64,000 nucleotides of DNA from Agroathelia rolfsii (taxonomy: Eukaryota; Basidiomycota; Agaricomycetes; Amylocorticiales; Amylocorticiaceae), in NCBI GenBank assembly GCA_018343915.1, contig JABRWF010000002.1:4278001-4342000 (forward strand), written 5' to 3'. Position numbers and translations under genes: made by a program. This document shows, in pieces, positions 9,242 to 49,555 of the stretch. Position 1 is the stretch's first letter, and each line of letters opens with the position of its first letter. The notes under the pieces were generated by a model that saw only the letters and a program-made list of their open reading frames with translations, ran no database searches and was not told the origin of the DNA.

Positions 9242-9473
9242 TGTCAAGGCTTGCACTCTTGACTACCTTAATGATAGAAGTAGCTAGACCTATTATACCA
9301 CAATATGTATGCTATACTACTGTTGAGTATCATGGATACACCTAGACTGTCAAGGCTTGTGCTCTTAACTACCTCAACAACAAAAGTGGCTTAAGCCTAT
9401 ATACCACACTAAGATACTGTACCACTAATAAGTCATGCTGGTGTACTCCAAGTCTACAAGACTTTCCACCAAG
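9242..9473 (-). mobile_element. Three short L1 LTR remnants
   Basis: A minus L1 end (TGTCAAGGCTTGCACTC, 9242-9327) abuts the first 20 bp of a plus L1 (TATCATGGATACACC, 9328-9347). That abuts another minus L1 end, closest to subtype c (9348-9473). Truncation and strand switches point to repeated recombination. Confidence 0.7.
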
Positions 9474-10417
9474 TATTGAACTATTGTAGTTCTTGGTTGT
9501 ATAGTGTGGCTATTTACTAGCTCACAAGTTACCTATTATGAAGCAAACACTTATGAGAAAAGTGCAGGCTTGGATTTGTTCCTAAGATTAGGCAAGGTTT
9601 CCTAGGTGGGAAGCAATTAGTAACTATGCTATACTGAAGATAAGATTGTAGCCAGTGTCTCTTTGAGACTACCTACTTAGTTTCCCTTAGGAAAGGCTTG
9701 TAATCTTTGTCTTATAGACTTGGTAAGTCTGGGGTGAAGTTAGTACCCTAGGAGCTAGTCTTGTAGACTATTTAACTCACTATTTCAAGTGAAATAACTT
9801 ATATTTTAGAGCTGATTTAGCTAGGGTTTATATACTACAAAATATTCTAATTTCTAAAGGATTTGTAAGCAATGTCTTTGCTTAAGTAATCTGCTTGGTA
9901 AGCAAAGAGCATAAGGTTTATGCTTATAAATACTATACTTAGCTTACAGAGCAGATTTGTCAGCATAAACCTTACACTCTTTGCTTATCAAGCAGATTAC
10001 TTAAGCAAAGACATTGCTTACAAATCCTTCAGAAATTAGAATATTTTGTAGTATATAAACCCTAGCTAAATCAGCTATAAAATATAAGTTATTTCACTCA
10101 AAAATAGTGAGTTAAATAGTCTACAAGACTAGCTCCTAGGGTACTAACTTCACCCTAGACTTACCAAGTCTACAAGATAAGAAAACAAGCCTTTCCCAAG
10201 GGAAAACAAGTAGGTAGTCTCAAAGGAACACCAGCTATAATCTTATCTTAAGTATAGCAAAGTTACTAATTACTTCCCACCTAGGAAACCTTGCCTAATC
10301 TTAGGAACAAATCCAAGCCTGCACTTTTCTTAAAAGTAAGTGTTTACTTCATAACAGGTAACTTGTAAGCTAGTATATAGCTACACTATACAACCTGAGA
10401 ACTACTATAGTTCAATA
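9474..10417. repeat. 944-bp near-perfect palindrome built from L5 half-elements
   Basis: The left arm (9474-9924) is the inverted copy of the right arm (9962-10417) around a spacer of about 37 bp. Both outer ends read TATTGAACTAT or its complement. The right arm and spacer run colinear with one half of the solo L5 at 34031-34918. The left flank is L1c-like and the right flank L1a-like, so this is not one simple insertion. Any transcript through it would fold into a hairpin of about 450 bp. Confidence 0.9.
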
Positions 10418-10634
10418 ACTATTGGCTAATGACTTGTTACTGCTTGCTTAGTAAAGAAGGGAGTGCTAAACACTCTGAGACACTTAGATTCTTTCTTAGA
10501 GGGTAACAACCCTAAGTTACACTTTACCCTGGTTTATTAAGGGACTTGATATAGAGAGGGGGAGGCAGGCAATACAGCCTGTTCTATGGCTTGCTTAGGT
10601 CCTTATACAACCCCTAGGCTGACAAGGCACAAAG
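10418..10634 (-). mobile_element. L1a LTR fragment
   Basis: Minus-strand L1a from the GGCTAATGACTTGTTACTGC region to GGCACAAAG. It is the host into which the L1b at 10635 inserted; its right-hand continuation lies inverted at 14131-14420. Confidence 0.8.
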
Positions 10635-11242
10635 TGTCAAGGCTTGCGCTCTTGACTACCTCAATCAACCAAAGTGACGTTACCCATTACACTATACAAT
10701 ATGTATTGTACCACTAATAGGTCTCCTTGTATACTCTAAGCTTACAAAGCTTTCCACTAGGCTATTGTTTGCTAATGACACATGTAAGATGCTTAGTAAC
10801 GGTATGCAGTGTTATACTTTTGTTATGTATAAAGGTTTTAGCTTAGAAGGGAGAACTCCCTTAAGTTCACATGAATGCCCTTATATATATTAGGAACTTA
10901 AAGCAAGAGGTAGGGGTGCCAGAGGTAGTGTAGTAAGGGGGGGCACACATAGGGCTTACGTGGTCCTTATACAACCTAGGGGCTGACTAAGTGCACTAGG
11001 AGGGCTAATAGGTGTACAGGCTAGGATGATAAGCCTGAAGGCAAATTTATTAGTAAGAGTGTCTATTACATGAGCTATTACTCATCTGAAGGCAAAAGGT
11101 TGAAGCTAAGGTCTTCAGGGAGCATTACAGGGTCCTTATATACATGAACAAGGGCTGTGCTATAGTCTGTGTGCAGCCTCTTATAAACATCAAGGAAAGC
11201 TTTTAATAATAGTGCAAACGGATGACTAAGCATGATGGTATA
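10635..11242 (-). mobile_element. L1b LTR, part one, split by L6 and by an inversion
   Basis: Starts TGTCAAGGCTTGCGCTC and carries the L1 promoter and hairpin in reverse. It breaks off at GTATA against L6. The missing remainder is 14421-14670 on the other side of the inverted segment. The left flank CAAAG equals, after un-inversion, the flank CTTTG at 14416-14420. Confidence 0.85.
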
Positions 11243-12092
11243 TGTCACAACCCTAGTTGTACTATGTCATAGTTATTATAGCATTTATTCATGTTTACCA
11301 AGCATACACTCAGGTTTACCAAGCAAATATCTAGAATTACCATGCAGCTGTCAAAGGATTTCTTAGAGATTATATCAAGCTATATAAAAGCCATAGCATA
11401 TTATACTTTATAGCATACTAGTTATAAGTCATAGTATATCATAGTAAGCTATAGTTGCTATTTTATTACAGCTCAGTTCTAAGCCTTAGGCTTAGAAAGA
11501 GGCATACCTGTATTTCCGCTCCCTGGCTGCCATTGCTACGCTGGTTGTGACATGTGACATGTCACATCACAAAAAGAGCGTAACTTTGCAATCTCTCATC
11601 TTCAGGCACTATCACAGGTACAAAGGGACTACAGTACATATTGCTGATCACTGGAACAATCAAGGAGAATCTTAGGAGTAATAGTGGATTATTAGTAAGG
11701 AATAGAAGCTAGGAAAGCGTACCAAAGTAAGAGAACAATAGTATACAAATCATGTATTTAAGTTACTAAGGTCTAAGAGATGTCCCCCATCTCACAGACC
11801 TCTTTCGTCAATTCTATTGTCTTTTTCCTTGTCTAAAGTCCCCTCACAAGCCACTACTAGCTCTAAGAATATTTCCTTGCCTTTGTATTATTTCCTGCAA
11901 GCCCAAGTTATAGTCAAAGCTATTATAAGTCATAGTTCACTATCCCATAGTTAATCTCAGGGTTTCCAACCCTGAGAGCGTCACCTCTAGCCTTGGATTA
12001 GGCTAGAGAAATCATAAAATTTTACTAACAATTCCATAGGAACTATTCACAGTGTTCATAGTATTATTGTTTATTGCTATAGACCTGTGACA
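11243..12092 (+). mobile_element. Solo L6 LTR, copy 1
   Basis: 850 bp, TGTCACAACCC...CCTGTGACA. A TATA-like CTATATAAAAGCC lies near 11380. A palindromic TGTGACATGTCACA lies near 11555. It appears almost identical to copy 2 (14671-15520, opposite strand). Its left flank is GTATA and its right flank GGCTG, which do not match each other but do match those of copy 2. Confidence 0.88.
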
Positions 12093-12205
12093 GGCTGTCT
12101 ATTATGAATAAATAATATGTAGAAAGTCCAAGAAAAATCGTAAAAATACAAGAAAAATACAGGAAAATGAAGAAAAATTAGGAGAGTCTGGGTGTACCCA
12201 TGACA
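12093..12205 (-). mobile_element. L1a LTR fragment cut off by the L6 inversion
   Basis: The first 113 bp of an L1a in reverse, ending GGGTGTACCCATGACA. Its other 743 bp are at 15526-16268. Confidence 0.85.
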
Positions 12206-12611
12206 GTTATCTCCTTGTTAATCTTTTCAAGGTTTTCTTCCTCCTGTTCCTTGATCTACTTGTAGTTGCCTATGGTTACAAAGCTTAGGACCTCCTCTAG
12301 GTCTTCTGATTTTATAGAGGGGCTGAAGGGCAATGGGTAGCCTGATTAGGAAGGTATATCAGTTTCCTAATAGGGTATTTCCTTATCTATGCTTACTGTT
12401 GAGATCTAGAGGCCACTGATGGTCAATCTCTTGATCCTCAATAATCTGCTGATCAAGGGTTTCTGTGATAGCAACCTGATTGGCTGTGTTGATTGCCTGG
12501 ACAATGGCAAGGTTGAAAGAAGCTGTGTTAGATTGAAAAGACACTAGATAAGGAAATTATTTAGTTAGCTACTCCTGATCTATCTAAGTTGCTTATTTAG
12601 GCAGGGCTCAT
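12206..12611. other. Orphan 406-bp segment of unknown origin
   Basis: It lies between two L1a ends and matches no other repeat here. On the minus strand a patchy open frame reads, for example, NLAIVQAINTANQVAITETL, which could be a retroelement gag piece. I cannot assign it. Confidence 0.4.
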
Positions 12612-13043
12612 TGTCATGGGTACACCCAGACTCTCCTAATCTTTCTTTATTTTCCTGTATTTTTCTTGTATTTTTACAATTTTTCTTGGACTTTCTACAC
12701 ATTATTTATTCATAATAGACAGTCTAGGACAATTGGTTACAGAGTACTTAGTTATATGACCGGCCATCATTGTACCTTTATACTAGTACCTATTAGTAAA
12801 TAGAGTCTAGACCCTTCTAGTTCCTTCCAAGTCTAGACTCTTGATCAATCAGCTGATGATACAATAATTGCACCATCATGCTTAGTTATCTATTTATACT
12901 ATGTTTAGCATTCCTTTCTATTTCTATCTCTATGCATAGACCATTCAGAAGTACACAGACCACCCCTGAAACTTATATAAGGACCCTGTAACACTCCCTG
13001 AAGGCCTTAGCTTTGACCTTTTGCCTTCAGGTGAGTAAATAAG
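12612..13043 (+). mobile_element. L1a LTR, 5' part
   Basis: TGTCATGGGTACACCCAG to just after the splice-donor hairpin. It is cut at ATAAG by a second L1a. TATA, hairpin and GTGAGT donor are intact. Its continuation is not next to the nested copy, so the far half was lost or moved. Confidence 0.85.
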
Positions 13044-14420
13044 TGTCATGGGTACACCTAGACTCTCCTAATCTTTCTTTATTTTCCTGTATTTTTCTTG
13101 TATTTTTACAATTTTTCTTGGACTTTCTACACATTATTTATTTATAATAGACAGCCTAGAACAATTGGTTACAGAGTACTTAGTTATATGACCGGCCATC
13201 ATTGTACCTTTATACTAGTACCTATTAGTAAACAGAGTCTAGACCCTTCTAGTTCCTTCCAAGTCTAGTATCATAGGACACTCATGACTCAACCAACATA
13301 ACCCTAAGATACCTAGCCTAGAAGGGCCAGAAGCAAATAGGGGGGTACAACTAATATCTTTAAGCTCCCCTAGCAGGGAGGTGCAACTCATGTTTAAAGA
13401 CCTAGAGGCAAGGTCTCCTACTGTTTCATAAAGGCTTCCATGCAACATACAATCACTAGTATTCTTAAAGTCTTTTGCCAGGTAGGACATGCTGTCTTCA
13501 GCTTTGATATAATTCTTTATACTCCCTTATCCTAGGAGTCCATGTTCACACATCCTAGTAATACATGCATACCTTTACTCAGGTTTATACTCCCTTAGAG
13601 CATGGAGTCATAGCATATCTCCTTAACCTTGGGGTCCAGGTATAATAATAAAGATGATGATAGGGGGGGTAAAATACATAAGAAAGAGAATGGGGGAAGG
13701 AACTTCAGGTGTGAGTAAGAGTGACACAGAGGGCAAAAGGTGGTCAAGCTGGATTGCAAAGGTCTCAAGGGCAGGCCTCTATATACTGTTTACAAGTACT
13801 CTAAGAATAGTTCTTAACTCCACATTAAGAGAAATAGAAGCAAGGAAAGAAAAAGGATCAGAGGAGTTAGAACAGAAGTATAGTGTGGGAAGAAATCAAA
13901 GATGAAAGAAGCATCAAAGATGGGAGAAGCAAATCAATGATGTACATCAGAAGATTCAGAAGTATACCCAAATGAAGTACAGTACTATATAAACAATGCA
14001 ACAAGAAACCAAAAATAAAGAAATAAAGCTTATACACTTAAATCAAAAGATAAAAAGTCAAGAAAAATAGTAGAAAATAGAGAAAAATTAGGGGAACAAA
14101 ATAATCATGGGATCAACCCATGATATCTAGACTCTTAATCAATCAGCTAATGATGCAATGATTGCATCATTATACTCAGTCATCCATTTATACTATGTTT
14201 AGCATTCCTTTCTATTTCTGTCTCTGTACACAGACCATTCAGAAGTACACAGACCACCCCTGAAACTTATATAAGGACCCTGTAACACTCCCTAAAGGCC
14301 TTAGCTTTGACCTTTTGCCTTCAGGTGAGTAAATAAGCATGTACATCTCTCTTTACCATTTACTAATATATTTACCTTCAGGCTCATTGTCCTAGCCCTC
14401 TCACCCTTGCCCTCCCTTTG
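13044..14420 (+). mobile_element. L1a LTR interrupted by L2
   Basis: Two pieces, 13044-13268 and 14126-14420, flank an L2 insertion with target duplication TCTAG. It ends at CTTTG where an L1b inserted; the rest is at 10418-10634 in reverse. Confidence 0.85.
13269..14125 (-). mobile_element. Solo L2 LTR
   Basis: 857 bp, TATCATAGGACACTC...ATCAACCCATGATA, with TCTAG on both sides. It carries the conserved L2 open frame (ATG at 13490, minus) and a G-run from the poly-C tract. Confidence 0.88.
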
Positions 14421-14670
14421 TGTCATGGGTACACCCAGACTCTCCTGATTTTTCTCTATTTTTTCCTATTTTTCTTGTATTTTTACGATTTATTTTACAT
14501 TTTCTATACCTCTTTCATTATTTATTTCTCTAATAAGGCAAAAGTTCACATAGTGCTTGGTCACATGACCAGCCATCATAGTTTCCTTGTACCAGTGCCT
14601 ATTTAGTAAGCACAGCCTAGACCATTCTATTGTTAGGCTAAGGATCACTCAGCATGAATAATAAGTATAC
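14421..14670 (+). mobile_element. L1b LTR, part two, split by L6
   Basis: TGTCATGGGTACACCCAG to TATAC at the L6 boundary. With 10635-11242 it rebuilds a complete L1b of about 853 bp once the intervening segment is flipped. Confidence 0.85.
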
Positions 14671-15520
14671 TGTCACAGGTCTATAGCAATAAACAATAAT
14701 ACTATGAACACTGTGAATAGTTCCTATGGAATTGTTAGTAAAATTTTATGATTTCTCTAGCCTAATCCAAGGCTAGAGGTGACGCTCTCAGGGTTTCCAA
14801 CCCTGAGGTTAACTATGGGATAGTGAACTATGACTTATAATAGCTTTGACTATAACTTGGGCTTGCAGGAAATAATACAAAGGCAAGGAAATATTCTTAG
14901 AGCTAGTAGTGGCTTGTGAGGGGACTTTAGACAAGGAAAAAGACAATAGAATTGACGAAAGAGGTCTGTGAGATGGGGGACATCTCTTAGACCTTAGTAA
15001 CTTAAATACATGATTTGTATACTATTGTTCTCTTACTTTGGTACGCTTTCCTAGCTTCTATTCCTTACTAATAATCCACTATTACTCCTAAGATTCTCCT
15101 TGATTGTTCCAGTGATCAGCAATATGTACTGTAGTCCCTTTGTACCTGTGATAGTGCCTGAAGATGAGAGATTGCAAAGTTACGCTCTTTTTGTGATGTG
15201 ACATGTCACATGTCACAACCAGCGTAGCAATGGCAGCCAGGGAGCGGAAATACAGGTATGCCTCTTTCTAAGCCTAAGGCTTAGAACTGAGCTGTAATAA
15301 AATAGCAACTATAGCTTACTATGATATACTATGACTTATAACTAGTATGCTATAAAGTATAATATGCTATGGCTTTTATATAGCTTGATATAATCTCTAA
15401 GAAATCCTTTGACAGCTGCATGGTAATTCTAGATATTTGCTTGGTAAACCTGAGTGTATGCTTGGTAAACATGAATAAATGCTATAATAACTATGACATA
15501 GTACAACTAGGGTTGTGACA
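14671..15520 (-). mobile_element. Solo L6 LTR, copy 2
   Basis: 850 bp, TGTCACAGGTC...GGGTTGTGACA, inverted relative to copy 1. Flanks are TATAC (left) and CAGCC (right). CAGCC pairs with GGCTG beside copy 1, and TATAC with GTATA beside copy 1. Confidence 0.88.
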
Positions 15521-16268
15521 CAGCCTAGGACAATTAGTTACAGAGTACTTAGTTATATGACCGGCCATTATTATACCTTTGTACCAGTACCTATTAGTAA
15601 ACAGAGTCTAGACCCTTCTAGTTCCTTCCAAGTCTAGACTCTTAATCAATCAGCTGATAATGCAATGATTGCACCATCATACTTAGTCATCCATTTATAC
15701 TATGTTTAGCATTCCTTTCTATTTCTGTCTCTATGCACAGACCATTTAGAAGTGCACAGACCACCCCTGAAACTTATATAAGGACCCTGTAACACTCCCT
15801 GAAGGCCTTAGCTTTGACCTTTTGCCTTCAGGTGAGTAAATAAGCATGTACATCTCTCTTTACTATTTACTAATACATTTGCCTTCAGGCTCATCATCCT
15901 AGCCCTCTCACCCTTGCCCTCTCTTTGTGCCTCGTCAGCCTAGGGGTTGTATAAGGACCTAAGCAAGCCATAGAACAGGCTGTATTGCCTGCCTCCCCCT
16001 CTCTATATCAAGTCCCTTAATAAATTAGGGCAAAGTGTGACTTAGGGTTATTACCCTCTAAGAAAGAATCTAAGTGTCTCAGAGTGTTTAGCACTCCCTT
16101 CTTTACTAAGCAAGCAGTAACAAGTCATTAGCCAACAGTAGCCTTTGGTGGAAAGTCTTCTAGACTTGGAGTACACCTTTGGGACCTAGTAGCAGTATAT
16201 TGTTCTGTTTGTGGTGTGAGTAGGGGTCACCTCTGTTGTTTAGATAGTCAAGAGTGTGAGCCTTGACA
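15521..16268 (+). mobile_element. L1a LTR, 3' part
   Basis: Starts at CAGCCTAGGACAATT and ends GTGTGAGCCTTGACA. It contains TATA, hairpin, donor and acceptor. Joined to 12093-12205 it makes an 856-bp L1a. Confidence 0.87.
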
Positions 16269-17161
16269 GTTGCTACTCAACCTTTGATATCAAAGATTTC
16301 TTTTTGTATAAAATTTTCCCAGAAAATAAAATCAAATACACAATAATATCTAATGGTACTAAACTCCCAATCAAAGGAATAGGTACAGTTAAGATCAAAC
16401 ATGTTGATTCCAGTGGAAGAATACATGTTCTAGATATCTCAAATATGAGATATATTTTGGACACCAAAGAAAGATTACTCTTACCTCAACAAATATCCCA
16501 AAAAACAAATGGATATTGGGTAATCAGACAATCTAGAAAGATCATGGAATTAATCATCAATAAGAAAAAGATGCTAAGCATATATATCAATCAAAATAAC
16601 AATTTTGAGCTTAGAGGAAAAATTACTCAAAGCAAATATGCCATGTCTCTACTCACTAAAGATGAAATACCATATGATGTAATACACCAAAGATTTGCTT
16701 ATGCAAATAGAGATTCAATTTTGCATATATTATCAAGTACAGTAGGTAGACCAAGTAATATTGGAGCTACTACTGAAGAAACTTGTAAAGGATGTGCAAA
16801 AGCAAAGTCAATTAGAGCATCTCACCCTCCATCTCCAGACCATGCAATGCATCCAAATGATATAGTTCACTCAGATATTTACACATTACCAATAAATGCT
16901 ATAAGAAGTAATATCAAATATACTGTAGTCTTCCTAGATAATGCTACTTCATATTGTACAATGTATTTCTTATCATCAAAAGACCAAGTCTTTGAAGCAT
17001 TTAAGAAATATGTAAACTGGTCAGAAAGACAATCTAAAAGAAAGCTATATATATTTAGATCTAACAGAGGAGGAGAATTCATGTCTAAAGAATTCCAAGT
17101 ATATCTTGATCAATTAGGAATTGCTCATGAAACATCTATTCTGCATACATATCAGCAAAAT
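16269..17161 (+). pseudogene. Ty1/copia GAG-pre-integrase and integrase fragment
   Basis: An open frame of nearly 300 codons, truncated at both ends by L1 LTRs. The pre-integrase domain is seen as VIHQRFAYANRDSIL and ETCKGCAKAKSIRA (the HHCC zinc fold). The integrase core starts HSDIYTLP and continues YTVVFLDNATSY. The second catalytic Asp is replaced: RSNRGGEF where RSDRGGEF is expected, a G-to-A change. It ends LHTYQQN at the L1b start. No copia LTR adjoins it and no reverse transcriptase follows. Confidence 0.88.
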
Positions 17162-17415
17162 TGTCATGGGTACACCTAGACTCTCCTAATTTTTCTTTAT
17201 TTTTTGCTATTTTTCTTGTATTTTTATGATTTATTTTCCATTTTCTACACCTCTTTCATTATTTATTTGCCCAACAAGGCAAAGGATCACATGGTGCTTG
17301 GTCACATGACCGGCCATTATAGTTCCCTTGTACCGGTGCCTAGTTAGTAAGCACAGTCTAGACTGTTCTATTGTTAGGCTAAGGATCACTCAGCATGATG
17401 CAACAAGTATACCAT

Positions 17416-17964: not shown

Positions 17965-18820
17965 TGTCATGGGTACACCCAGACTCTCCTAATTTTTCTG
18001 TATTTTCCTGTATTTTTCTTGTATTTTTACGATTTTTCTTGGACTTTCTATACATTATTTATTCATAATAGACAGCCTAGGACAATTGGTTACAGAGTAC
18101 TTAGTTATATGACTAGCCATCATTATACCTTTGTACCAGTACCTATTAGTAAACAGAGTCTAGACCCTTCTAGTTCCTTCCAAGTCTAGACTCTTGATCA
18201 ATCAGCTGATGATGCAATGATTGCACCATCATGCTCAGTCATCCATTTGTACTATGTTTAGCATTCCTTTCTATTTCTGTCTCTGTGCACAGACCATTCA
18301 GAAGTGCACAGACCACCCCTGAAACTTATATAAGGACCCTGTAACACTCCCTGAAGGCCTTAGCTTTGACCTTCTACCTTCAGGTGAGTAAATAAGCATG
18401 TATATCTTTCTTTACCATTTACTAATATATCTGCCTTCAGGCTCATTGTCCTAGCCCTCTCACCCTTGCCCTCCCTTTGTGCCTCGTCAGCCTAAGGGTT
18501 GTATAAGGACCTAAGCAAGCTATAGAACAGGCTATATTGCCTGCCTCCCCCTTTCTATATCAAGTCCCTTAATAAGTCAGGGCAAGGTGTGATTTAGGGT
18601 TATTACCCTCTAAGAAAGAATCTAAGTGTCTCAGAGTGTTTAGCACTCCCTTCTTTACTAAGCAAGCAGTAACAAGTCATTAGCCAACAGTAGCCTTTGG
18701 TGGAAAGTCTTCTAGACTTGGAGTACACCTTTAGGACCTAGTAGCAGTACATTGTTCTGTTTGTGGTGTGGGTAGAGGTCACCTCTGTTGTTTAGATAGT
18801 CAAGAGCGTGAGCCTTGACA
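17965..18820 (+). mobile_element. Solo L1a LTR
   Basis: 856 bp with target duplication CATAC on both sides, inside an L1b. Promoter, hairpin, donor and acceptor are all present. Confidence 0.92.
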
Positions 18821-24894: not shown

Positions 24895-26330
24895 GAATAC
24901 AAAAAAATAAATAAAATCATAAAAGATGAGGACTCTCCTCTATTATTGGCAGCAACCTTGGGTTTACTGCCTCAATACCAGAAATATGCTAAAGTCTTCT
25001 CTGAAGCAGAGTCCTAATAATTCCCTACTAGCAAACCCTATGATTATAAAATAGAGTTAGTAGAGGGAGCCAAAATAAAGAGGGCTAAGGTATATCCATT
25101 ATCAATCCCAGAGTTGAAAGAATTGGACACGTATTTGGAGGAAAACTTGGCCAAAGGATATATAAGAAAATCGCAAAGTCCTTATGCATCTCTATTTTTC
25201 TTTATTCCAAAGAAGAATGGGAAACTCAGGCCTATAGTAGGTTATCATCAACTCAATAATATCACAATAAAAAACTCCTACCCACTTCCTCTGATCTCTT
25301 CTATTATGGATGGACTCCCTTGGGCAAAAGTATTTACCAAATTGGACTTACAGTGGGGATGTAATAGTGTCTTAATTAAAGATGGACACCAAGAACAAGC
25401 AGCCTTCATAACCCCTCAAGGACTATTTGAACCCCTTATAATGACCTTTAGTTTATGCAATGCCCTGGCTACTTTCCAAGCTATAATGGATGAAATATTT
25501 ACAGACCTAATTGTACAAGGATTAGTATATGTCTATATTGACAACATTATAGTTGCTACAGCTAGCTCAGAAGAACACCAGCATTTAGTGTATAAAGTAC
25601 TTAAGAGATTAGCAGAAAACAATCTTTTTGCTAATTTGGAAAAATACCTATTTGAAGTCTCTGAGGTGGAATTCCTAGGTGTAATAATTGGCTACAATTG
25701 TATATAAATAACCAATAAAAAGTCCAAGCCATTCTTGACTGGCCAACCCCTACAATAGTCAAGGATGTTCAGAAGTTCAGAGGTCTAGCCAACTATTACC
25801 AAAGATTTATCAAGGGGTTCAGCGAGATTACTAAATCCCTAGATAGGTTAACTGGCAAAGGCACTTGGAAATGGGAAAAAGAGGAATAAGAATCATTTGA
25901 CTATCTCAAGAAGGCTTTTACTACTGCCCCAGTATTAGCTATCTATAATTACCAGTGAGAAAGTCAGATTGAAACTGATGCCTCAGAATATGCAACAGAA
26001 GGAGTATTCTCCCAGTTGCAGGATGATAGTAAATAGTACCCTATTACCTTGCATTCCAAATCTATAGATGACATATAAAGAAATTACAACATCTAGGATA
26101 AGGAAATACTTGCAATTATTTGAGCACTGGAAGAATGGTGCCACTACATTATTAGGTTACCTAAACTGGTGGAGATCTGGTCAGATCACAAAAACTTGGA
26201 ATATTAGGCAACAAGTCAATACCTAAGCCATTGACAAGCACGTTGGTATTGGATCCTACAAGAATATAATTTTGTATTATGTTACAAAAAAGGATCAACC
26301 AATGGACAAGCTGATGCCCTGCCTCGGATT
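24895..26330 (+). pseudogene. GypA copy 1 reverse transcriptase and RNase H
   Basis: The best frame spans 25114-25707. Motifs: [28 protein letters not shown] (catalytic Asp), FSLCNALATFQAIMDEIF, and YIDN where YIDD is needed (G to A). RNase H follows with ETDASEYAT, interrupted by TGA and TAA codons. At about 26325 the frame jumps from DALPR straight to the chromodomain linker. Confidence 0.88.
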
Positions 26331-29484: not shown

Positions 29485-30349
29485 TGTCATGGGTTGATCC
29501 CATGATTATTTTGTTCCCCTAATTTTTCTCTATTTTCTACTATTTTTCTTGACTTTTTATCTTTTGATTTGAGTGTATAGGCTTTATTTCTTTATTTTTG
29601 GTTTCTTGTTGCATTGTTTATATGGTACTATACTTCATTTGGGTATACTTCTGAATCTTCTGATGTACATCATTGATTTGCTTCTCCCATCTTTGATGCT
29701 TCTTTCATCTTTGATTTCTTCCCACACTGTACTTCTGTTCTAACTCCTCTGATCCTTTTTCTTTCTTTACTTCTATTTCCCTTGATGTGGAGTTAAGAAC
29801 TATTCTTAAAGTACTTGTAAACAGTATATAGAGGCCTGCCCTTGAGACCTTTGTAATCTAGCTTGACTACCTTTTGCCCTCTGTATTACTCTCACTCACA
29901 CCTAAAGTTCCTTCCCCCATTCTCTTTCTTGTGTGTTTTACCCCCCCCCCTCTATCATCATCTTTATTGTTATACCTAGACCCCAAGGTTAAGGGGATAT
30001 GCTGTGACTCTATGCTCTAAGGAAGTATAAAACTAAGTAAAGCTATGCATGTGTTACCAGGATATATGAATATAGACTCCTAGGATAAGGGAGTATAAAG
30101 AATTATGTCAAAGCTAAAGATAGCATATCCTACCTGGCAAAGAACTTTAAGAATACCAGTGATTGTATGTTGTATGGAAGCCTCTATGAAACAGTGGGAG
30201 ACCTTGCCTCTAGGTCTTTAAACATGAGTTATACCTCCCTACTGGGGGAGCTTAAAGATATTAGTTGTACCCCACTCCTATTTACTTCTGGCCCTTCTAG
30301 GCTAGGCATCTTAGGGTTATATTGGTTGAGTCATGAGTGTCCCATAACA
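29485..30349 (+). mobile_element. Solo L2 LTR
   Basis: 865 bp, TGTCATGGGTTGATC...GTGTCCCATAACA, duplication TCTAT at 29480-29484 and 30350-30354. Its open frame (ATG at 30167) runs through the LTR end into GypB sequence. Confidence 0.93.
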
Positions 30350-34030: not shown

Positions 34031-34918
34031 TATTGAAAGATATACATATTTCAATACATCCAATCTTTCTAAATATTCTAATGAATACTTCAATAAATCA
34101 GTTTATATCTCATCTATCACTATCATTTATTTCAAGAATTTACAACTATTAGTTGTGGAGATATAAAGTAATTATTCATTCACTTTATTCTGAATATTTC
34201 CAAAATATATTCATATTTCAATATTCATTTCTTAAAATCATTTAAATATTCATTTTAAAATATCTTTTATTCAAACAATTCACTTTACTTACTAATACAC
34301 AATTGTGATTATAAATCAGCTTACAAATCACACAAATAAATTAGTAATCACCTTCAAAGACATTAGTAATATTTGAGATATATTACTAATATCACTTTCC
34401 TATTCATTCAAATATTCAATTTGCTTACAAATACTATACTTAGCTTACAGAGCGGATTTGTCAGCATAAACCTTACGCTCTTTGCTTACCAAGCAGATTA
34501 CTTAAGCAAAGACATTGCTTACAAATCCTTCAGAAATTAGAATATTTTGTAGTATATAAACCCTAGCTAAATTAGCTGTAAAATATAAGTTATTTCATTC
34601 AAAAATAGTGAGTTAAATAGTCTACAAGACTGGCTCCATTGATACTAACTTCACCCTAGACTTACAAAGTCTACAAGACAAGATTAGAAGCCATTTCCTC
34701 AAGGAAATAAAGTAGGTAGTCTCAAAGGGACACCGGCTATATCTTATCTTCTGTGTAGAATAGTTACTAACCACTTCCCACCTAGGAAACTTTGCCTATT
34801 CTTAGGAAACACCCCAAGCCTGCACTTTTCTCTACAAGTAAGTGTTTGCTTTATAACAGGTAACTTGTGAGCTAGTATATAGCCACACTATACAACTAAG
34901 AACTACCATAGTTCAATA
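34031..34918. mobile_element. Solo L5 LTR-like element
   Basis: 888 bp with ends TATTGAA...TTCAATA and duplication CTTTT at 34026-34030 and 34919-34923. It is very AT-rich. Ends are TA...TA; TG...CA ends altered by C-to-T and G-to-A change would explain this. The right half equals one arm of the palindrome at 9.5-10.4 kb. Family unknown; the TGTTGAA-like start would suit a copia LTR. Confidence 0.8.
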
Positions 34919-35135
34919 CTTTTGCAGCTATGCCTTAATAGGTTGAAAGGATGTAATTAAGGTCCCTAATTGCTTCTGCTAATAGTTTAATGATAAAGAT
35001 GGCTTATAAAGGAAAAATGTAGCTATCTATATATAAATCTTTCCTTGCTTGTGCTGATTTGTAAGCAATTCTTTTCTTATACTAATCTAGAGCTAAGGCT
35101 CTACAGACTAGGCTCAGGTATTAGCTTTGACCTGA
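34919..35135. other. Probable GypB leader remnant
   Basis: Continues the sequence interrupted by L5 (GTACTAGTACTTTT|GCAGC) and ends at an L1b. By position it would be the leader between 5' LTR and gag of GypB copy 2 (minus). No frame seen. Confidence 0.4.
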
Positions 35136-35521
35136 TGTCAAGGCTTACACTCTTGACTACCTCAATCAACAAAAGTAATATTACCCACTATACCATACAA
35201 TACATGCTGTACCGCTAGTGAGTCTCCTAGTGTACTCTAAGCTTGCAAAGCTTTCTACCAGGCTATCATTTGCTAATAACACATGTATAATGTTTAGCTA
35301 TGGTATGCAGTATTATACTTCCATTATATATAGAGATTTGGCTTAAAGGAGATACTACTCCTAAGTTTATATAAATGCCCTTATATATTAGGGACTTAAA
35401 GCAAGGGATAGGGGTGTAGGGGTAGCATAGAAGGAGAGGTGCATGCATAGGGCTTATGTGGTCCTTATACAACCTAGGGGCTGACTAAGCACACTAGGAG
35501 GGTGAGTTGGTATACGGGCTA
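35136..35521 (-). mobile_element. L1b LTR, truncated
   Basis: TGTCAAGGCTTACAC to GGTATACGGGCTA, where an L6-like element begins. It could be the former 5' LTR of GypB copy 2, as strand and position fit. Confidence 0.75.
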
Positions 35522-36334
35522 TGTCACAGGTCTATAAACTATGACTATGAATACTTATGAATATTTATAAAGGATTGCTATAGAAAAGAATAAGAATACT
35601 TAATTAGTAAACAGGGGGAGGCAGGCAATACAGCCTGTTCTATAGCTTGCTTAGGTCCTTATACAACCCTTAGGCTGACAAGGCACAAAGGGAGGGCAAG
35701 GGTGAGAGGGCTAGGACAATGAGCCTAAAGGCAAATGTATTATTAAATAGTAAAGAGAGATGTACATGCTTATTTACTCACCTAAAGGCAAAAGGTCAAA
35801 GCTAAGGCCTTCAGGGAGTGTTACAGGGTCCTTATATAAGTTTCAGGGGTGGTCTGTGCGCTTCTAAATGGTCTGTGCACAGAGACAGAAATAGAAAGGA
35901 ATGCTAAACATAGTACAAATGGATGACTGAGTATGATGGTGCAATCATTGCATTATCAGCTGATTGATCAAGAGTCTAGACTTGGAAGGAACTAGAAGGG
36001 TCTAGACTCTGTTTACTAATAGGTACTGGTACAAAGGTACAATGATGGCCGGTCATATAACTAAGTACTCTGTAACCAATTATCCTAGGCTGTCTATTAT
36101 GAATAAATAATGTGTAGAAAGTCCAAGAAAAATCGTAAAAATACAAGAAAAATACAGGAAAATAAAGAAAAATTAGGAGAGTCTAGGTGTACCCATGACA
36201 ACTATGACTTTGACAACTATAATAACTATGGTTATGACTTGGGACAATAAGAGTGGTACAATAGGGGCTTAGAGGTGTAAAGAGAGCCTGGGACAATGAA
36301 TAACAATGATAGTATTGACGAAAGAGGTCTGTGA
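35522..36334 (-). mobile_element. Divergent L6-like LTR, interrupted
   Basis: Starts TGTCACAGGTCTATA as L6 does. It resumes after an L1a with ACTTTGACAACTATAAT and GACGAAAGAGGTCTGTGA, both close to L6. It is broken at both ends and clearly older than the two intact L6 copies. Confidence 0.6.
35613..36200 (-). mobile_element. L1a LTR, 5'-deleted
   Basis: From GGGGGAGGCAGGC to GTGTACCCATGACA, including promoter and hairpin; about 260 bp of one end are missing. Confidence 0.82.
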
Positions 36335-48250: not shown

Positions 48251-49555
48251 AGAAATATATCTGTTTACATAGAAAATATGTTAGCCATCCTACAATAGCA
48301 TGTCTGTCATCTCATAACAATAACATACTAGTAGTAGGGCACCTAGAAAAGCATAAAACCTTAGAACTAGTATTACACAATTATTGGTGGCCTAGCATGA
48401 CACGGTTTATCAATGGATATATAACTATATGCCCCCAATGTATTGCAAATAAGAGTTCTTGACAACCCCCCTCTGGATTACTTTAGCCCTTGCCTGCACC
48501 ACAAGAATCCTAGGAACACATAATAGCAGATATAATTGTAAAGTTACCTCAGTTAGAAGAATTTAACTCTGTTTTGGTGATTGTGAATAAACTCACTAAA
48601 ATATGTCATCTAATCCCAACCATAGAAATGGTGACTGTCATAGGTACACCCAGACTCTCCTGATTTTTCTCTATTTTTCTATATTTTTCTTGTATTTTTA
48701 CAATTTATTCTATATTTTCTACACCTCTTTTATTATTTATTTTCCTAATAAGGCAAGAGATCACATAGTGCTTGGTCACATGACCGGCCATCATAGTTTC
48801 CTTGTACTGGTGCCTATTTAGTAAGCACAGCCTAGACCGTTCTATTGTTAGGCTAAGGATCACTCAGCATGATATAATAAGCACACTATTATGCTTAGTC
48901 ATCCATTTGCACTATTATTAAAAGCTTTCCTTGACATTTCTGAGAGGCTGTGTACAGACCATAGCATAGCCCTTGTTCATATATATAAGGACCCTGTAAT
49001 GCTTCCTAAAGGCCTTAGCTTCAACCTTTTGTCTTTAGGTGAGTAATAGCTTATGTAATAGACACTCTTACTAATAAATTTGCCTTTAGGCTTATTGTCC
49101 TAGCCCATACACCTATTTAGCCCTCCTAGTATACTTAGTCAGCCCCTAGGTTGTATAAGGACCACATAAGCCCTAAGTGTACCCCCCTCCCTCTCTACGC
49201 TATCTCTGGTACCCCTACCTCTTGCTTTAAGTCCCTAATATATAAAGGGCATTTATATGAACTTAAGGGAGATTCTCCCTTTTAAGCTAAAACCTCTATA
49301 TATAACAAAAGTATAGCACTGCATACCATTACTAAGCATCTTATACATGTCATTAGCAAATAGTAGCCCAGTGGAAAGCTTTGTAAGCTTAGAGTATACA
49401 GAGAGACCCATTAGCAGTACAGTGTACACTATGTAGTGTAACGGGTGACGTTACTTTAGTTGGTTGAGATAGTCAAGAGCGCAAGCCTTAATAGTAACTG
49501 CAGTAGAAGTAGCAGGATTATACCTAAAGAATATGTTCAAACTTTATGGAATTCC
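48251..49555 (+). pseudogene. GypB copy 4 integrase, interrupted by L1b
   Basis: Zinc part HLEKHKTLELVLHNYWWPSM with CPQCIANK intact. The core starts DIIVKLPQLEEF and reads CHLIPTIEMVT to the L1b. It resumes at 49494 as VTAVEVAGLYLKNMFKLYGI and is cut by another L1b. Confidence 0.85.
48636..49493 (+). mobile_element. Solo L1b LTR
   Basis: 858 bp, TGTCATAGGTACACC...CAAGCCTTAATA. Flanks are GTGAC and GTAAC, differing by one G-to-A (CpA to TpA on the other strand). Hairpin arms CCTAAAGGC and GTCTTTAGG still pair. Confidence 0.9.

Follow-up and report, generated by a model that had tools for sequence, protein, structure and literature searches.

The window, i.e., the whole 64,000-nucleotide stretch of Agroathelia rolfsii DNA analyzed here, very probably contains an inversion of 2.6 kb (positions 12093 to 14670) that arose by crossing over between two inverted copies of the element L6. 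This is the best explanation for the exchanged flanks of the two copies, for the split LTRs and split arm/block unit around them, and for a pair identity above that of the other aligned copies. The setting is a transposon-filled chromosome region, and similar LTRs crowd the window. L6 copy 1 (11243 to 12092, plus strand) is LTR-like, running from TGTCAC to GTGACA, and L6 copy 2 (14671 to 15520, minus strand) is inverted relative to it; both are 850 bp long, and direct comparison in opposite orientation gave an identity of 846/850. Mismatched target duplications are a diagnostic sign of a crossover between elements, and the two L6 copies of the window carry them in exchanged form. Copy 1 lies between GTATA (11238 to 11242) and GGCTG (12093 to 12097), the partners of which are found beside copy 2 as TATAC (14666 to 14670) and CAGCC (15521 to 15525), all given on the plus strand. 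Read in the orientation of L6, the flanks are GTATA/GGCTG for copy 1 and GGCTG/GTATA for copy 2, a reciprocal exchange of 5-bp target duplications. The L6 coordinates, orientations, and flanks described in an earlier note on this DNA were all confirmed by alignment.

The LTR pieces around the L6 copies bear on the flip in the same way. Seven such pieces were aligned singly, without joining, to nine further LTR stretches that the window contains, one of which (35136 to 36200) is a composite. The a-subfamily LTR L1a consists of a 5′ piece at 12093 to 12205 (minus strand) and a 3′ piece at 15521 to 16268 (plus strand); against the LTR at 17965 to 18820, the reverse complement of the former aligned to positions 1 to 113 and the latter to positions 109 to 856. 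The b-subfamily LTR L1b consists of a 5′ piece at 14421 to 14670 (plus strand, positions 1 to 251) and a 3′ piece at 10635 to 11242 (minus strand, position 247 to the end). Against the LTR at 48636 to 49495, the alignment of the 5′ piece ran over positions 1 to 246 and left out the final 5 bases of the piece, that of the reverse-complemented 3′ piece began at position 250 and left out the 3 bases at its start, and extension of these alignments reaches 251 and 247, respectively. A third LTR, L1c, hosts both L1b and an insert at 13269 to 14125, and is found in pieces at 13044 to 13268 (plus strand, positions 1 to 225), 14126 to 14420 (plus strand, positions 221 to 515), and 10418 to 10634 (minus strand, positions 511 to 727), the last of which was left outside the inverted segment; the latter two were placed by alignment to the 17965 LTR.

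Six of these pieces fit together at three junctions, one each in L1a, L1b, and L1c, and do so in the flipped order only. At each junction the alignments overlap by 5 bases, and these overlaps are the duplicated targets CAGCC, TATAC, and CTTTG. The last belongs to L1b itself, the target duplication of which lies at 10630 to 10634 on its left side (CAAAG) and, in reverse complement, at 14416 to 14420 on its other side (CTTTG, both given on the plus strand). The earlier note had proposed that flipping 12093 to 14670 would yield one continuous L1b and one continuous L1a, would restore the L1b duplication, and would thus repair three target duplications by one operation, and it had staked this reading on the L1 pieces beside the L6 copies joining into LTRs; in our alignments the pieces do join, those of L1c included, and the proposal stands in each of these points. 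A fourth junction, at 13268/14126 (TCTAG; position 225, then 221), lies wholly inside the segment and is uninformative on the flip. In the assembled order, copy 1 stands between an a-type piece (1 to 113) and a b-type piece (247 to the end), and copy 2 between a b-type piece (1 to 251) and an a-type piece (109 to 856). Each L6 thus has neighbors from two subfamilies at present, which leave a gap or overlap between them and do not fit together. The subfamily assignments rest on identities of 91 to 97% to a-type and 68 to 83% to b-type LTRs for the L1a pieces, with the exception of one 35-bp end match at 89% in the composite stretch, and of 76 to 93% to b-type and mostly 68 to 77% to a-type LTRs for the L1b pieces, with the exceptions of short matches of 31 and about 50 bp that reach 87 and 83% to a-type and of 80.6% against the non-a-type part of the composite. 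The insert at 13269 to 14125, wholly inside the inverted segment, is itself LTR-like and about 857 bp long, shows by eye a TCTAG duplication on both sides (13264 to 13268 and 14126 to 14130), and has 93 to 95% identical copies at 30345 to 29487, 39646 to 38791, and 46956 to 46099.

The order of two other repeats at further loci of the genome, a test in which the target duplications play no part, is independent support for the flip. A search with the block at 12206 to 12611 (minus strand, inverted here) gave 18 matches, namely, the window, 13 single matches, and two loci split into two matches each. The block is therefore present at no fewer than 15 other loci of this genome, and all 15 were examined. 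In every one of the 15, three of which (L038 to L040) are nearly alike and possibly not independent, an arm resembling 9955 to 10417 (plus strand, outside the inversion) lay on the 12611 side of the block and had its 10417 end turned to it. The arm ends within 4 to 6 bases of the block in 12 of the 15 loci; another LTR lies between arm and block in L030, and the arm match stops about 145 to 150 bases short of the block in L035 and L041. In the window as assembled, it is the 12206 end of the block that is turned to the arm, and the flip restores the common order. Together, arm and block resemble an LTR and leader of the copia type of element, and the sequence GGTTATGAGCCC between them (in L031, near 1497 to 1508) resembles what we take to be a primer site complementary to the anticodon arm of the initiator tRNA. 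At 9474 to 10417, two inverted copies of one repeat arm make up a palindrome about 944 bp long (90%, for 953 aligned positions), and related arms occur at 34422 to 34921.

At two places the flip does not restore continuity. Even with the segment flipped, the flanks on the outside of L1a remain different (ATAAC, the reverse complement of 12206 to 12210, versus GTTGC at 16269 to 16273), and in the three relatives read (L030 to L032) the sequence beyond the block's 12206 end differs from that of the window at 16269. Because of this mismatch and the different continuation in the relatives, something besides the inversion must have changed on the right of L1a as well, and L1a was dropped on the same grounds as a candidate for a fourth repaired duplication. 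L1c ends at LTR position 727, at 10417/10418 against the palindrome, with its last 129 positions missing, and the remainder was not found beside 10418. This shortening calls for one additional event or more, a deletion being probable. A continuation of L1c to the left of the palindrome, at 9348 to 9472, was considered and rejected, given its identity of 74.6% to the a-type LTR versus 94 to 95% for the other L1c pieces and a flank, TAGAC, that by eye does not pair with ATAAG.

The flanks of L6 copies elsewhere in the genome place the exchange in a wider context. The L6 search gave at least 54 listed matches, 40 of 198 candidates were scored, and flanks were taken for 28 copies, mostly complete, with partial copies and a few weaker near-complete ones left out. 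L6 has TG...CA ends and a 5-bp target duplication, as does the LTR of a retrotransposon, and some copies have mutated ends. Among the 26 copies outside the pair, 18 have an exact 5-bp duplication of their own, 3 have one with a single mismatch, and 5 have none (L012, L017, L019, L022, and L023, the matches of L017 and L023 stopping short of the element end). The left flank of one copy equals the right flank of another in 3 of the 756 ordered cross-pairs of the 28 copies, where about 1 is expected. Two of these three matches are the window pair and the third, L019/L027, is one-way, which leaves the window pair as the only reciprocal one among the 28 copies surveyed. The complete copies L012, L019, and L022, which lack both a matching duplication and a reciprocal partner within the set of 28, are candidates for other products of ectopic recombination.

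The pair also differs from its relatives in its pattern of changes. Among the matches listed, the six closest other copies (L003 to L008) form nearly a star: their private changes number 3, 3, 4, 7, 6, and 7, and just three columns are common to two or three copies. Of the 30 private changes, 28 are C>T or G>A, 20 of them in CpA/TpG context (hand count), a pattern reminiscent of repeat-induced point mutation in fungi. The window pair has 7 shared changes absent from L003 to L008, each of them C>T or G>A; 4 are in CpA context, and 5 also occur in some more distant copies. No unshared change was found outside one 4-base cluster. If about 5 private changes are expected per copy, the chance of none in both is near e^-10, by a rough hand estimate. 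Gene conversion between the linked inverted copies likely explains this identity and would have homogenized the pair. The 7 shared changes could also stem from a late origin of both copies from one source element, a reading disfavored because the changes at alignment columns 619 and 676 are absent from all 26 of the other copies in the alignment.

All 4 differences between the two copies lie within a quasi-palindrome at 11955 to 11967 (plus strand), which reads CCTCAGGGTTGGAAACCCTGAGA in copy 2 and in L003 to L010 and TCTCAGGGTTTCCAACCCTGAGA in copy 1. In copy 1 the loop has become its own reverse complement and the arm is one pair longer, and a single hairpin template switch in this copy would explain the whole cluster. 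Four independent point mutations were rejected as an explanation; one event is simpler because every difference corresponds to the opposite arm and loop read in reverse complement. The same turned 3-base loop (TCC) occurs in L027, apparently independently of copy 1, and a TCT loop occurs in L018; template switching may thus recur in the L6 family. In yeast, template switching between short inverted repeat arms has been described as causing arm homogenization and spacer inversion (PMC8604942). The copy 1 cluster likewise combines arm homogenization with loop inversion, although it lies in an LTR-like element, whereas the yeast cases concern protein-coding genes (PMC8604942).

The proposed course of events begins with two L6 insertions in opposite orientations within a nest of older LTRs, one of which would have entered L1b at the target GTATA and the other L1a at the target CAGCC/GGCTG. 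Homologous recombination between the two copies, on one chromosome or between sister chromatids, would then have been resolved as a crossover, presumably somewhere within L6, flipping the intervening DNA and leaving each element with one flank from either site. Crossing over between inverted near-identical L6 copies, the cause given in the earlier note, is the simplest one in view of the exchanged flanks, the joined LTRs, and the arm/block order.

A variant in which both L6 copies were still full-length at the time of the crossover, which may then have fallen in their inner parts, and in which each later collapsed to a single LTR would give the same end state, and the LTR-like ends and 5-bp duplications of L6 do lead one to expect a full-length parent. 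We regard this variant as unlikely, as it needs two extra events and as no equal-age same-strand pair at element spacing was seen among 54 matches inspected by eye, with 40 of 198 candidates scored; among the matches listed, same-strand pairs 3 to 7 kb apart differ in their identity to the query (98/79%, 94/80%, and 93/72%). Misjoining of reads through the two inverted 850-bp repeats, in a cell that carries the unflipped order, would look like the inversion itself, and the order of the pieces is known from one assembly of one strain; the breakpoints coincide with near-identical inverted repeats in a window full of similar LTRs. The 8 contigs for 37.7 Mb nevertheless suggest long reads, of which one about 5 kb long would reach across the site, and such an assembly error is in our judgment highly improbable. 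The inversion put forward in the earlier note is supported; because a misassembly would produce the same picture, the word "proved" used there is slightly too strong. Two independent L6 insertions into already scrambled L1 pieces, without any inversion, can practically be dismissed, for although the region is otherwise rearranged (the short L1c at 10418 and the unfitting right side of L1a), this would require three chance 5-base matches (computed at about 0.0014 for one given match and about 2.5e-9 for three), two chance LTR joins, and an arm/block order that also arose by chance. The favored origin of the present order, by a wide margin, is a genuine crossover of the inverted L6 copies in the organism rather than an artifact of assembly.

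LTR-mediated ectopic recombination is a well-known kind of event, of which the present inversion would be a clean instance. In Mycosphaerella fijiensis, 125 LTR elements kept separate from 515 that were analyzed differed between their 5′ and 3′ insertion sequences and were read as products of ectopic recombination (PMC3562529). They share with the L6 pair the different sequences at the two ends of an element, but their partners are unpaired in the available part of that account, whereas here both products lie side by side and the event can be traced (PMC3562529). Crossovers between endogenous retroviruses likewise rearrange chromosomes (Hughes and Coffin 2001, as cited in PMC11379458), and one macaque provirus apparently stems from a crossover that gave a reciprocal translocation, and no reciprocal pairs were identified in humans, according to the same source (PMC11379458). 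The principle of a chromosome rearranged by a crossover between elements is shared with these retroviral cases (PMC11379458); the present event differs from the translocation in that it inverted a local segment between two inverted copies and that both of its products can be seen. A small search of open papers, by titles and abstract openings, found none on exactly such a fungal LTR inversion, and we do not claim that it is unreported.

Within the flipped segment (12093 to 14670) there are no open frames of at least 150 residues, and because of this no functional effect of the inversion is expected. Elsewhere in the window, open frames at 16256 to 17179 and 25114 to 25707 match an integrase core (PF00665) and a reverse transcriptase (PF00078), respectively, and are retroelement remains. 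The copia-like frame matched 3 proteins, one from Linum trigynum and two listed under the source jgi, whereas a 5.8S rRNA search, in which 39 of 1193 candidates were scored, gave none. It is possible, if rather doubtful, that the L6 pair remains active as a site of recombination, still exchanging sequence and flipping the 2.6-kb segment. Both orientations would then coexist in the species or even in one culture, repeated conversion would have left the 7 shared changes as its record, and since the last exchange the only change would be the template switch of copy 1. Taken together, the locus documents one LTR-mediated inversion with unusual completeness: the two products are both there, a single move repairs three target duplications, and the order of an unrelated repeat agrees. 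Exchange also seems to maintain the identity of these two linked inverted repeats, so that dating them by their divergence would mislead.
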